Source: an uncultured Bryobacteraceae bacterium (GTDB lineage Bacteria > Acidobacteriota > Terriglobia > Bryobacterales > Bryobacteraceae). Taken from it: a stretch of 56,684 nucleotides of DNA. Positions 20,117-24,265 of this stretch are shown piece after piece. How positions within the stretch are numbered: position 1 is the stretch's first letter; every line of letters starts with the position of its first letter. A model generated the notes under the pieces. The model worked only from the letters and a program-made list of their open reading frames with translations. It searched no databases and had not been told where the DNA came from. The stretch is taken from contig CAKZUE010000005.1 of the NCBI GenBank assembly GCA_937920635.1, positions 1-56,684 on the forward strand, read 5' to 3'. Position numbers and translations under genes: made by a program.

Positions 20117-21334
20117 TCAGCTCTCCTTGCGGCGCCCGGCGTCGCGCAGGAACTGGCGGATCGAGCGCAGCGCCTGCCGCGTCCGGTGGTGGTTTTCGAT
20201 CAGCGCGAAGCGGACATGGCCTTCGCCGGCCGGGCCGAAGCCGATGCCGGGGCTGGCCGCCACCAGCGCTTTTTCCAATAAAAGCTTGGCGAATTCCAGC
20301 GACGGCAGGTCCTGAAATGGCGGTGGAATTTTCGCCCAGACAAACATGGAAGCCTTGGGCTTTTCCACCGGCCAGCCGGCCGCATTCAGGCCATCCACCA
20401 GGAGGTCGCGGCGCTTTTCGTACAGGTGGCAGATCTTGCCCACCTCCTCCTCGCAGTCGCGCAGAGCGATGATGGACGCGATCTGGATGGGCTGGAAATT
20501 GCCGTAATCGAGATAACTTTTAATGCGCGCCAGCGCCTTGATCATGCGCGGATTTCCGAGGCAGAAGCCGACGCGCCAGCCGGCCATGTTGTAGCTCTTT
20601 GTCATCGAGAAGATTTCTACGGCCACCTCTTTGGCGCCGTCCGCCTGGAGGATGCTCGGGGCGCGATAGCCGTCGAAGCAGAGATCGGCGTAGGCGAAGT
20701 CGTGCAGGATCATCGCCCCGTGCCGGTGCGCGAGCGCGACGACGTGGCGGAAGAAGTCCAGATCGACGCACGCCGTGGTCGGATTGTGCGGGTAGTTGAG
20801 CAGGATCAGGCGGGGCGGTCTGGTCGCTTTGCGGAAGTGGTCTTCGAGCCGGTTCAGGTACTCGGCGGGATCGGCCACCGGCAGGGGCGCCGCGCGGCCC
20901 TCGGCCATGATCACGCCGTACTGGTGGATCGGATAGCAGGGGGCGGGCGTGACCACTTCGTCGCCGGGACCGATGACGGCGAACATCAAGTGGGCCAGCG
21001 CGTCCTTGGCGCCGATGGTGACGATGGCCTCCGTCTCCGGATCGAGTGCGACGCCGTAGTTGCGCTCGTAACGGCGGCAGATTTCCAGCCGCAGGTTGGG
21101 AATGCCGCGCGAAACCGAATAGCGGTGGTTGCGCGGGTTGCGCGCCGCTTCGATGAGCTTGTTGACGACCGGGCGCGGCGTGGCCCCGTCGGGGTTGCCC
21201 ATGCCGAAGTCGACGACGTCATACTGCTGCGCCCGCAGCCGCGCCTTCATCTCGTTGACGACGGCAAAAACATAAGGCGGCAGTTTTGCGATGCGGTAAA
21301 ACTCATCCACGGCTATGCCCGACTGCATATACAC
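20117..21334 (-). CDS. alaC: Glutamate-pyruvate aminotransferase AlaC
   Basis: A fold-type I PLP aminotransferase that makes alanine from pyruvate and glutamate. It closely resembles E. coli AlaC along its length: RIAKLPPYVFAVVNEMK, VDFGMGNPDGATP, HRYSVSRGIPNLR, IVTIGAKDALAHLMFA and the PLP lysine in SMTKSYNMAGWRVGF (Lys246). The C-terminal SPGIGFGPAGEGHVRFALIE binds the substrate carboxylate. Two in-frame ATGs are three codons apart. It is divergent from the rhodanese gene. Confidence 0.9.
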   Translation of the reverse strand: MYMQSGIAVDEFYRIAKLPPYVFAVVNEMKARLRAQQYDVVDFGMGNPDGATPRPVVNKLIEAARNPRNHRYSVSRGIPNLRLEICRRYERNYGVALDPETEAIVTIGAKDALAHLMFAVIGPGDEVVTPAPCYPIHQYGVIMAEGRAAPLPVADPAEYLNRLEDHFRKATRPPRLILLNYPHNPTTACVDLDFFRHVVALAHRHGAMILHDFAYADLCFDGYRAPSILQADGAKEVAVEIFSMTKSYNMAGWRVGFCLGNPRMIKALARIKSYLDYGNFQPIQIASIIALRDCEEEVGKICHLYEKRRDLLVDGLNAAGWPVEKPKASMFVWAKIPPPFQDLPSLEFAKLLLEKALVAASPGIGFGPAGEGHVRFALIENHHRTRQALRSIRQFLRDAGRRKES

Positions 21335-21354
21335 ACCATGCTACACTGCCGGTC

Positions 21355-21771
21355 ATGAGAGCATTCTGCTGGGCCTGCGTGCTGGCTTCGGTGCTGGCTT
21401 TCGCCTTTGCCTGCGGGCAGTCCGCCACGAAGGTGAAGGAATTGAGCGCCGAGGAGCTGGCCAGGCTCCTGGAGCAACCGGACAAAGTCTTCTTTCTGGA
21501 CGTACGCGAGCCATACGAGATCCAGATGCTGGGCTCGGTGAAAGGCTACGTCAACATTCCGATGAGCCAGTTGCCTGCGCGGCTGGGCGAGGTCCCGAAG
21601 AACAAGGTCATCGTCACCCTTTGAACGCAGGGTGGCCGCGCCGCCCGTGCGGCGGCGTATCTCGCAGAGAAGGGTTACCGCACCGCAGGCTCGTGCGGGC
21701 TGGAATCGGTCCGGCGGCAAAAGGGAGGGGAGAAAATCCGCACGACGCCGGGGGCGCCAGGCAGGAAATGA
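21355..21771 (+). CDS. Exported rhodanese-domain protein with in-frame UGA at the catalytic Cys (candidate selenoprotein)
   Basis: Reading UGA as selenocysteine gives a 138-residue protein with one rhodanese domain. An N-terminal hydrophobic signal (VLASVLAFAFAC) places it outside the cytoplasm. The fold is clear: LSAEELARLLEQPDKVFFLD, VREPYEIQMLGSVKGYVNIP, then VPKNKVIVTL immediately before UGA (codon 90), followed in the same frame by TQGGRAARAAAYLAEKGY, CGLES and RRQKGGE. Rhodanese active sites are C-x4-R; here U-T-Q-G-G-R fits exactly, with UGA in place of the sulfur-carrying residue. No frameshift is needed. A GC-rich hairpin lies at a SECIS-like distance. Alternatives: a recent nonsense mutation or base error. 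No sel genes are in the window. Confidence 0.7.
21622..21658 (+). promoter_or_regulatory. Candidate bacterial SECIS hairpin after the rhodanese UGA
   Basis: Starting at the UGA, an 8-bp stem (21638-21645 with 21651-21658, including one G-U) closes on a 5-nt loop CGUGC that starts 21 nt after UGA. Published bacterial SECIS models allow about 16-37 nt and want a G among the first two loop bases; both hold. GC-rich codons make such hairpins common by chance, so this is supporting evidence only. Confidence 0.45.
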
Positions 21772-21862: not shown

Positions 21863-24175
21863 TCAGTGCCCATCCTCCCACTCGAAATAAGACCCGTAGC
21901 CGGCGCCGAGGTTGCGCGCCAGCCAGAGGCGGTATTCGCGTGAGGCGGTGCGGGCGACGGCGCGGCCCGCAGGCTCGGCCGTGTTGGTCAGAACCAGCAG
22001 GGTCCAGCGGCCGTCGATGGTTTTCGAGCAGACGATCTCGTCGCGGTAGTCGCCCCACAGATCGGCGGTCATCAGAACGCGGCAACCCGGAGCGGGAGAC
22101 TCGGCGGCGGGTGCGAACCCCTTGCCGTCGAAGCGGACGATCTGCGCCGCATCGCCGGAGATCAGTTCGCGCACGCTGCGGCCGAGCCAGTTCACCGGGC
22201 GCCAGGCGCCGGGCACGGGGCGCAGGAGTTCGCGGCCATCGGATGAAAGCAGCAGGGTGTCTTTCATCTCGTGGCCATCGGTGTTCGCCAGTAACTCATA
22301 ACCAGGCGAGCCTTCCCAGATGTCGGCCGCCCAGCCGGTATGAGCGTGAACCCAGCGCGGATCGTCCTCGCGGTTGCGCTTCCAGTGGAGGCGGCCGGAG
22401 GCGGCGTCCACCACGTAAACGCCCGCGTGAGTGGTGCTTTCGACGGCGTAGTAAACCTGCCGCTGCGGCTGGCCGAGGATGCGCTTGATGGCGACAATAT
22501 CGGGGTGCAGGCGGTAGAGGCTCCAGCGGATCGTCCCATCAGAGTTAAGAACCGTTGTGCCGTCGAAGACCTCGTCACGGCCGTCGCCGTCGAGGTCGGC
22601 AATGTCGATGTGGTGAGAGCCCGAGCCGGAGGTAGGGCCGATGCTCTCATACTTCCAGAGAAGTTTCAGATCCGGGCTCCAGGCATGGAAGAGTTCATTT
22701 TCATAAAGCCCGGTCTGTGTGATCAGGCTGGGCGTGCGGCCGTCGAGGTACGCCACAGCCATATGGATGCGGGTGGAGGTGCCGGCCTTGTCGGTGAACA
22801 TCTCAGGCCAGGGCGTGCGGCGAAGGGTGCGGCCGGTCATGCCGTCGAGAATGGCCAGCCAGGTCCGGCCGTCTTCTTCGATGCGCGCGGCGACCTCGGC
22901 GCGGCCGTCGCCGTCGAGGTCGTACACGAGAAAGGGCGCGTTGTTGGCATTGCCGAAGCAGGCATCGAATCCGATCATGGGACGGCGCCAGAGCTGTTTG
23001 CCGAAACTGGTGATGGCCTCGAGTTCGACGGGGAGGCCCGGATTGGGGCGGTTCTCCTGGATCAGGTTGTCGAGCCGGAAGACGGCGTCAGGCGAGCCGT
23101 CGCCATTCAGGTCGCCAAAGACGGGAGCGGCCTGGCCCTGGCGGATGCCCGGCTGGAAGACAGCGGCGGCGGGCAGGCCGTCCGTGCCAGGGAGTTCAGC
23201 GCCCCACTCTGAGGGCGGTCCTTCGCGGCCGTCATCAGAAACAGCACGCACGCGGTAGTAGAGGCGTCCCTCGGGCGGGGCGGCATCGAGCCAGGCCGTC
23301 CGGTTCAACAACGGTTGACGCGTCAGGCGTTCCCCGGCCATGTCACGGCGGCGGGAGCGGTAGACGTGGAAGCCGAGGCGGTCTTCACCGGGCAGGAGCT
23401 GCCAGGAAACAAAAATGCCTCGTTGTGTTCTGACGACGGCGAGCCGGCGCGGCTGGCGGCGGAAGTGGGTGGCGCCCGCGGGTTCGCGCACGAGGCGGAA
23501 GCCGAGATCGGGATGACGGATGCCGGCGCCGCCGGCGCCGCCCCGGACGCCGATTTTCAGGTACGCGGCCGAGCGCGCCCAGGAGCCGCCCATCACGGTG
23601 GACTCTTTCTCATAGGGCTGGTGGAGGCGGAAGATCCAGCGCTGCGTCGCCGGGTCGTGATCGGTATGCACCATCTGCCAGACGTTGCCGGCCATGTCGT
23701 ACAGCCCCCAGGGGTTGGGCGGGTAGGAGCGCACGGGCTTGAGGTGATCGCGCCAGGCGGGAAAAGAACGGGCGCCGTCCGGATCGAAGTTGGCCTGGTT
23801 TGACGGCGGCTCGCTGCCCCAGGGGTAGAGGACGTCAGAGCGTCCGGCGCGGGCGGCGTATTCGAACTCCGCAGGCGTGGGGAGGCGGTAGATGCGGCCT
23901 TCGCGCGCAGTGCGCCAGGCGAGGTACTTCTCAACGTCGTAGCGGTTGACGTAGATCACGGGATGGTTTTCGAAGCCGCGCGGGGGCGCGCCGTTTTCCC
24001 AATGCATCGGCGGAGCGTGGCGCGTGGCGGCGATGAATGCGGCATATTCGGCATTGGTGACGGGAGCGTCGGCGATTTCGAAATCCAGGACGTTGGCATC
24101 GCCGCGGATGGAGACGAACTTCTCCGCGGCCAGAGTGGCCAAACAGAACAGCGGAAGGCAGTACAGCAGGCGCAT
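21863..24175 (-). CDS. SUMF1/FGE-like domain fused to rhamnogalacturonan-lyase-like beta-propeller
   Basis: A 770-residue exported protein. After a signal peptide (LLYCLPLFCLATLAA), residues about 25-220 are a SUMF1/formylglycine-generating-enzyme-like domain (PVTNAEYAAFI, YRLPTPAEFEYAARAG, YPWGSEPP, NPWGLYDMAGNVWQMV, STVMGGSW, GFRLVRE). The paired cysteines of true FGE are missing. A fibronectin-III-like linker follows (RLGFHVYRSRRRD, YYRVRAVSDDGREGP). The C-terminal 430 residues carry calcium-loop repeats (FGDLNGDGSPDAVF, VYDLDGDGRAEVAAR, IADLDGDGRDEV), in the pattern of PL11 rhamnogalacturonan lyases. It probably binds or cleaves a pectin-like glycan. The start follows a GGAG ribosome site; a longer reading adds ten residues. 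Confidence 0.75.
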   Translation of the reverse strand: MRLLYCLPLFCLATLAAEKFVSIRGDANVLDFEIADAPVTNAEYAAFIAATRHAPPMHWENGAPPRGFENHPVIYVNRYDVEKYLAWRTAREGRIYRLPTPAEFEYAARAGRSDVLYPWGSEPPSNQANFDPDGARSFPAWRDHLKPVRSYPPNPWGLYDMAGNVWQMVHTDHDPATQRWIFRLHQPYEKESTVMGGSWARSAAYLKIGVRGGAGGAGIRHPDLGFRLVREPAGATHFRRQPRRLAVVRTQRGIFVSWQLLPGEDRLGFHVYRSRRRDMAGERLTRQPLLNRTAWLDAAPPEGRLYYRVRAVSDDGREGPPSEWGAELPGTDGLPAAAVFQPGIRQGQAAPVFGDLNGDGSPDAVFRLDNLIQENRPNPGLPVELEAITSFGKQLWRRPMIGFDACFGNANNAPFLVYDLDGDGRAEVAARIEEDGRTWLAILDGMTGRTLRRTPWPEMFTDKAGTSTRIHMAVAYLDGRTPSLITQTGLYENELFHAWSPDLKLLWKYESIGPTSGSGSHHIDIADLDGDGRDEVFDGTTVLNSDGTIRWSLYRLHPDIVAIKRILGQPQRQVYYAVESTTHAGVYVVDAASGRLHWKRNREDDPRWVHAHTGWAADIWEGSPGYELLANTDGHEMKDTLLLSSDGRELLRPVPGAWRPVNWLGRSVRELISGDAAQIVRFDGKGFAPAAESPAPGCRVLMTADLWGDYRDEIVCSKTIDGRWTLLVLTNTAEPAGRAVARTASREYRLWLARNLGAGYGSYFEWEDGH

Positions 24176-24265
24176 GGCGTGTCTCCAGGCGGATTTCCCG
24201 GGCAATCATACTCCAATCACAGGCGGATCATCTGCGGCTGGAATCCGGGCGCACCCCGCCGCCGC

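Follow-up and report, generated by a model that had tools for sequence, protein, structure and literature searches.

The window, that is, the whole stretch of 56,684 nt from an uncultured Bryobacteraceae bacterium that was analysed here, carries a rhodanese gene with an in-frame UGA at its catalytic codon, and the features that we assign to this locus are as follows:

21339 to 21347, forward strand: extended -10-like element TGCTACACT, which ends 7 nt ahead of the ATG and is found in all five genus members
21355 to 21771, forward strand: candidate selenocysteine (Sec)-containing rhodanese gene, 138 residues plus the closing TGA, with a PF00581 match across the UGA
21355 to 21420, forward strand: possible export signal, MRAFCWACVLASVLAFAFAC-GQ, with the N-terminus and the homologues read by eye
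21622 to 21624, forward strand: in-frame UGA, codon 90, at the catalytic position and putatively read as Sec, from the comparison of homologues
21639 to 21657, forward strand: predicted bacterial SECIS hairpin, from covariation, which starts 14 nt past the UGA
21639 to 21645, 21646 to 21650 and 21651 to 21657, forward strand: predicted 5' arm, apical loop CGUGC and 3' arm of this hairpin, likewise from covariation
21694 to 21696, forward strand: codon for Cys114, a second Cys 24 residues past the Sec in GSCGL, from the sequence and its homologues

A class I/II aminotransferase gene (20117-21334, reverse strand) lies divergently and directly upstream of the rhodanese gene, and an aminotransferase homologue (E up to 1e-6) was present at 20/113 loci (three repeating the same contig), many loci being too short to show one. 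The downstream neighbour (21863-24205, reverse strand) combines a sulfatase-modifying-factor-like region with a rhamnogalacturonan lyase family 11 C-terminal domain. The extended -10-like element also stands upstream of the ATG at L015-L018 and at other family loci, where it ends 6-7 nt before the start codon; the closeness of TGCTACACT to the ATG suggests a putative promoter that would give rise to a leaderless mRNA. The N-terminus of the protein is hydrophobic (MRAFCWACVLASVLAFAFAC-GQ), and the rhodanese is probably exported. Since the last Cys of MRAFCWACVLASVLAFAFAC, which is lipobox-like, is missing in the same-genus homologue L018, lipid attachment is uncertain.

The gene starts with the ATG at 21355 and closes with a TGA at codon 139 (21769-21771), and apart from the UGA at codon 90 no in-frame stop lies ahead of this end. 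Within the 138-residue product the UGA takes the place of the catalytic Cys of rhodaneses, as the first position of a loop of the C-x4-R type with U for C (U90 T Q G G R95). The preliminary description had put an in-frame UGA at the catalytic-Cys codon, in the loop U-T-Q-G-G-R, with rhodanese homology running past it in the same frame to a normal end and with no other damage to the gene. We confirmed each of these points: reading the UGA as a residue gave a PF00581 match over residues 31-109 (47.1 bits, cut-off 22.2; E 3.6e-12), the frame ends at the closing TGA, and the UGA, the one in-frame stop ahead of it, is shared by relatives. Because the list of open reading frames made with translation table 11 terminates the gene at the UGA, the active site and the C-terminal third of the protein are missing from such an annotation.

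An AlphaFold2 model built from four sequences had a mean pLDDT of 65.8, with values of about 80-90 for residues 41-110 and poor values at the ends, and the best PDB matches of this model in Foldseek were rhodanese domains or proteins (3icr, 3nta and 3gk5). The CoA-disulfide/persulfide reductases 3icr and 3nta thus supply the top fold matches with their rhodanese domain, 3icr also being the top match by sequence among solved structures, but in the window protein this domain stands alone and is joined by a possible export signal and by the predicted Sec. With the single-domain thiosulfate sulfurtransferases PspE and GlpE the protein has a single rhodanese domain in common, and the PspE structure 2jtq matches weakly; in contrast with these enzymes, it would have Sec instead of Cys, and its scores against their NCBIfam equivalogs are far under the cut-offs (NF007627, 24.8 of 102 bits; NF001195, 19.4 of 102 bits).

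Three selenoprotein forms invite comparison. NF041203, the rhodanese_LYCAU (seleno)protein, is likewise a rhodanese-related selenoprotein family, but the window protein scores 29.6 bits against its cut-off of 115 and lacks at its site the CxU that the text consulted of PMC13188914 gives for this family as form 3. Forms 2 and 4 of the same text (MBM9537886.1 and MCY3690685.1) are both PF00581 proteins with UxxG and are here compared by motif alone: with each of them the window protein has in common a rhodanese domain with a predicted Sec and a Gly at +3, the UxxG reading U-T-Q-G here. This Gly at +3 is present in 77/77 TGA homologues. NF045694, the TsoB rhodanese/DsbD fusion-like family, was absent from the 11 NCBIfam families matched at E up to 0.1.

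We then compared the state of codon 90 across homologues. The gene had a match in 44 of 61 related genomes (E up to 1e-10) and in 90 of 237 genomes of the family (E up to 1e-14). The site could be read in 89 of these 90 family genomes, with a TGA form in 62 of them, Cys alone in 19 and Ser alone in 8; the 90th, G205, has a 426-residue frame and stands outside these counts. In a phylum-wide sample of 396 genomes, 121 were matched (E up to 1e-15), 14 of them with a TGA in the match, the own genome included, and in all 13 TGA matches beyond the own genome the TGA falls at the same codon. Within the genus, the UGA is kept in 4/4 of the other genomes examined. An alignment of homologues at codon 90, which the preliminary description had proposed, finds U, Cys or Ser there, in 77, 26 and 8 of the 111 homologues read at the site. 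This count leaves out both L108 rows (the G162 contig again, already in L069), L046 (the same sequence as L058) and an L129 fragment match with a gap at the site, another L129 match having been read instead. Since the UGA recurs at one codon in four genus genomes and in 77/111 homologues, it is neither due to chance nor to a base-call error at 21622-21624, a concern raised earlier that is now ruled out. On a weakly resolved homologue tree (74 columns), codon 90 changed its state at least 10 times.

Several observations accompany this survey. In the Ser branch of the family (L119, L121-L123 and L125-L128), the catalytic position reads SNHA[AHS]R. A TAG inside the G019 match was considered as a possible Sec codon and rejected, being an ordinary C-terminal stop in a protein whose site residue is Cys. 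The record DYJN01000086.1 (L044), labelled Arcobacter, contains this gene at 80% identity, and its label looks wrong.

Selection past the UGA was assessed by comparing the five members of the genus. Over the 24 codons without gaps that directly follow the UGA, mean pairwise dN was 0.088 and pairwise dS 0.30-1.14, and the 59 codons ahead of it had a dN of 0.095; by these estimates, purifying selection acts within the genus on the codons past the UGA. Conservation is poor over the last 20 codons (mean dN 0.253), and their looseness, together with the fact that TGA ends ordinary bacterial genes, is what a pseudogene would offer in its favor, in which a nonsense mutation had made the UGA a true stop and the remainder were decaying. 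However, a decaying remainder agrees neither with the purifying selection just described nor with the recurrence of the UGA at this codon in 62 genomes of the family and 13/13 further TGA matches, and the synonymous covariation downstream of the UGA and the presence of Sec genes (both below) speak against it as well. We consider a pseudogene barely conceivable.

The own genome has the genes that Sec insertion at codon 90 would call for. A search for selA, selB, selC (tRNA-Sec) and selD, likewise proposed beforehand, turned up all four, each above its curated cut-off: SelA on contig C60 (491.9 bits), SelB on C3 (348.2 bits, cut-off 242.25), SelD on C17 (361.6 bits) and a tRNA-Sec with anticodon UCA on C63 (75 bits). 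The selD gene itself (L049, C17:59976-60881) carries a single in-frame TGA, within GUASKL, the usual Sec site of SelD. Past this TGA the RNA folds into a hairpin whose apical loop, GGU, occupies positions 21-23, close to the 22-26 of the rhodanese loop. Given this TGA and the hairpin that follows it, the own selD looks like a selenoprotein gene too, and as such it serves as a putative internal positive control for reading UGA as Sec.

Across the family, the survey covered SelA and tRNA-Sec, with SelB followed over the 61 related genomes and SelD in the own genome. The 62 TGA genomes comprise 60 with SelA, 56 with tRNA-Sec, 54 with both and none with neither; the two Sec-form genomes without SelA and the six others without tRNA-Sec are taken as draft-assembly gaps. 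Both genes are missing from 3/19 Cys genomes and 3/8 Ser genomes (6/27 together), and the difference in Sec-gene presence between TGA and Cys/Ser genomes gave a Fisher p of 0.0005, a value that is not corrected for relatedness. Conversely, the idea that pathway presence predicts the Sec form was rejected, given that SelA and tRNA-Sec are each found in 15/19 Cys-form genomes. Since most Cys genomes possess the Sec pathway, the link between Sec form and pathway runs one way.

These genes also bear on whether another residue, such as Trp from a near-cognate tRNA, could be inserted by readthrough, leaving the 89-residue short form dominant. Such readthrough would suit a frame that is open on both sides of the UGA, and some short form may always arise, but SelA, SelB, SelD and tRNA-Sec are all in the genome, and the 34/111 homologues without TGA have Cys (26) or Ser (8) at the site and in no case Trp. 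Furthermore, the loop codon and third-position covariation described next distinguish TGA members from Cys/Ser members. Insertion of a residue other than Sec is, in our judgment, very improbable.

We next analyzed the RNA just past the UGA, numbering bases from 1 after this codon, such that 15-21 pair with 27-33 around a loop at 22-26. Since the codons for A-A-R-A-A favor G+C-rich hairpins anyway, we relied on third codon positions and on Cys/Ser homologues as controls. The pairs 15/33, 18/30 and 21/27 each link two third codon positions, and thus covariation at these pairs is not due to coding. Among 66 distinct TGA sequences, pair 21/27 was formed in 61 (28 C-G, 28 G-C and 5 G-U; shuffled mean 32.6), pair 18/30 in 64 (shuffled mean 55.8) and pair 15/33 in 30 (shuffled mean 20.9). 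The outer pair 16/32 was formed in 34/66, so that each of the two outer pairs, 15/33 and 16/32, is unpaired in roughly half of the TGA sequences. In the 33 distinct Cys/Ser controls, by comparison, the third-position pairs 21/27, 18/30 and 15/33 were formed in 9, 12 and 12 sequences (shuffled 12.5, 12.3 and 11.6), which is no better than shuffles. The Arg codon of the loop is CGT in 56/66 distinct TGA sequences vs. 1/33 Cys/Ser homologues, while CGT accounts for 38/467 of the remaining Arg codons that these genes have close to the site.

The stem as a whole was scored on 60 distinct aligned sequences. Of its cells, 78.8% were paired (shuffled mean 68.7), 44 cells were changed on both sides compared to 0 to 9 for six slid stems, and its covariation score of 0.255 was reached by 0/500 shuffles, a count that should not be read as a probability, given the relatedness of the sequences. 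Among the five measures for this stem, two fell within the shuffles, namely double-change pairs (4; 166/500) and further pair types (9; 135/500). RNAalifold found five stem pairs in 21 chosen sequences, all of which have the CGUG loop start, two pairs showing double changes (9 and 5), and when run unguided on all 60 distinct sequences it returned two other pairs and missed the SECIS hairpin. Folding the window's own 57 nt to minimum energy gave another hairpin rather than the proposed SECIS, the CCCGGAGGG subgroup accommodates the SECIS only in a shifted register, and Rfam at gathering scores gave no match in the window.

That RNAalifold on all rows did not recover the hairpin, and that strong hairpins also occur in the Cys homologues L029 and L032, could mean that a G+C-rich hairpin is a mere by-product of the A-A-R-A-A codons and that Sec insertion needs something else. 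Against this possibility, pairing at third positions rises above that of shuffles among TGA members and not among Cys/Ser members, and the CGU of the loop is almost limited to TGA members; we therefore think a by-product highly unlikely. A legend of PMC1088965, in the part of that source consulted, mentions the conserved apical G of bacterial SECIS elements, and the hairpin just past the UGA has a G in its apical loop. We predict that this hairpin is a bacterial SECIS. Covariation of a SECIS hairpin was absent from the preliminary description, which had called the gene a candidate selenoprotein, and it strengthens this reading, which is also supported by tRNA-Sec, SelA, SelB, SelD and the U/Cys/Ser homologues. 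Taken together, these comparisons make it very probable that the gene encodes a single-domain rhodanese with Sec for the catalytic Cys.

The second cysteine, Cys114, lies in GSCGL, where most rhodaneses have GG. Strands 85-89 and 109-113 of the model end directly ahead of residues 90 and 114, and these two residues are presumably neighbors in the rhodanese fold. A Cys at +20 to +27 is found in 59/77 TGA, 14/26 Cys and 0/8 Ser homologues, and one at exactly +24 in 13/13 of the phylum-wide TGA set. A role for Cys114 as a strictly Sec-specific partner found no support, a Cys near +24 being absent in 18/77 Sec homologues and present in 14/26 Cys homologues.

In the mechanism that we propose, the hairpin would recruit SelB and Sec-tRNA so that Sec is inserted at UGA 90, and the finished Sec rhodanese would be exported. 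The selenolate of the Sec could then take a sulfane sulfur (Se-S-) from a thiosulfate, polysulfide or persulfide donor and hand it to a thiol, and Cys114 could resolve the selenium intermediate as a selenenyl sulfide. We are less sure of this functional half, and lean only slightly towards sulfane-sulfur transfer by the selenolate with Cys114 resolving. Sec might instead be inserted in a protein that works as a thiol/selenol oxidoreductase and not as a sulfurtransferase, an alternative that rivals the functional half only. The loop of six residues (U-x4-R) tells against an oxidoreductase, six residues being the size found in sulfurtransferases and not in Cdc25-like phosphatases or arsenate reductases, as does the nature of the best solved matches, which are rhodanese domains of CoA-disulfide and persulfide reductases. 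An oxidoreductase would nonetheless explain a second Cys at +24 in 13/13 distant homologues and at +20 to +27 in 59/77 nearer ones, and it has precedent in that nearly all selenoproteins of known function are antioxidant and most predicted ones are thiol-oxidoreductase-like, according to the text consulted of PMC9312934. We regard it as a real but less than even prospect. A broader picture would be that of an exported rhodanese, widespread in Acidobacteriota, whose Sec90-Cys114 pair (selenenyl sulfide) moves sulfane sulfur or reduces oxidized thiols of the cell envelope, and whose catalytic residue has gone back and forth more than once among Sec, Cys and, in one branch, Ser, the Sec pathway being lost in part of these cases; we offer this picture tentatively, as it is rather unlikely to hold in full.

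Rhodanese-related sulfurtransferases are counted among selenoproteins in the parts consulted of PMC9312934, PMC2398784 and PMC1088965, and Sec rhodaneses are given in five forms, two of them UxxG, in that of PMC13188914. The preliminary description had remarked that Sec-containing rhodanese-like proteins were already reported, and since reviews already give UxxG Sec rhodaneses, the window protein would be a further member and not a new kind. For Acidobacteria, PMC1794560 counts 3 families with 4 selenoproteins, which the text consulted does not name, and PMC12013277 describes one acidobacterium with 3 known selenoprotein genes; the word "rhodanese" is absent from the text of the latter. We found no acidobacterial Sec rhodanese in print, in a search of the literature made largely without subscription journals.

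With this locus, a predicted rhodanese with an encoded Sec gains a firm comparative basis in a phylum whose published selenoprotein counts, as given in the texts consulted, are small. It also provides a clean SECIS signal, in that synonymous third-position covariation comes with a built-in control set of Cys/Ser homologues, and the Sec/Cys/Ser series within one family offers a convenient setting in which to ask what a rhodanese gains from selenium. Neighboring copies of the gene occur in two genomes of the family, one of which has a Sec and a Cys form (L108/L069, G162) and the other two Sec forms (L076, G118).
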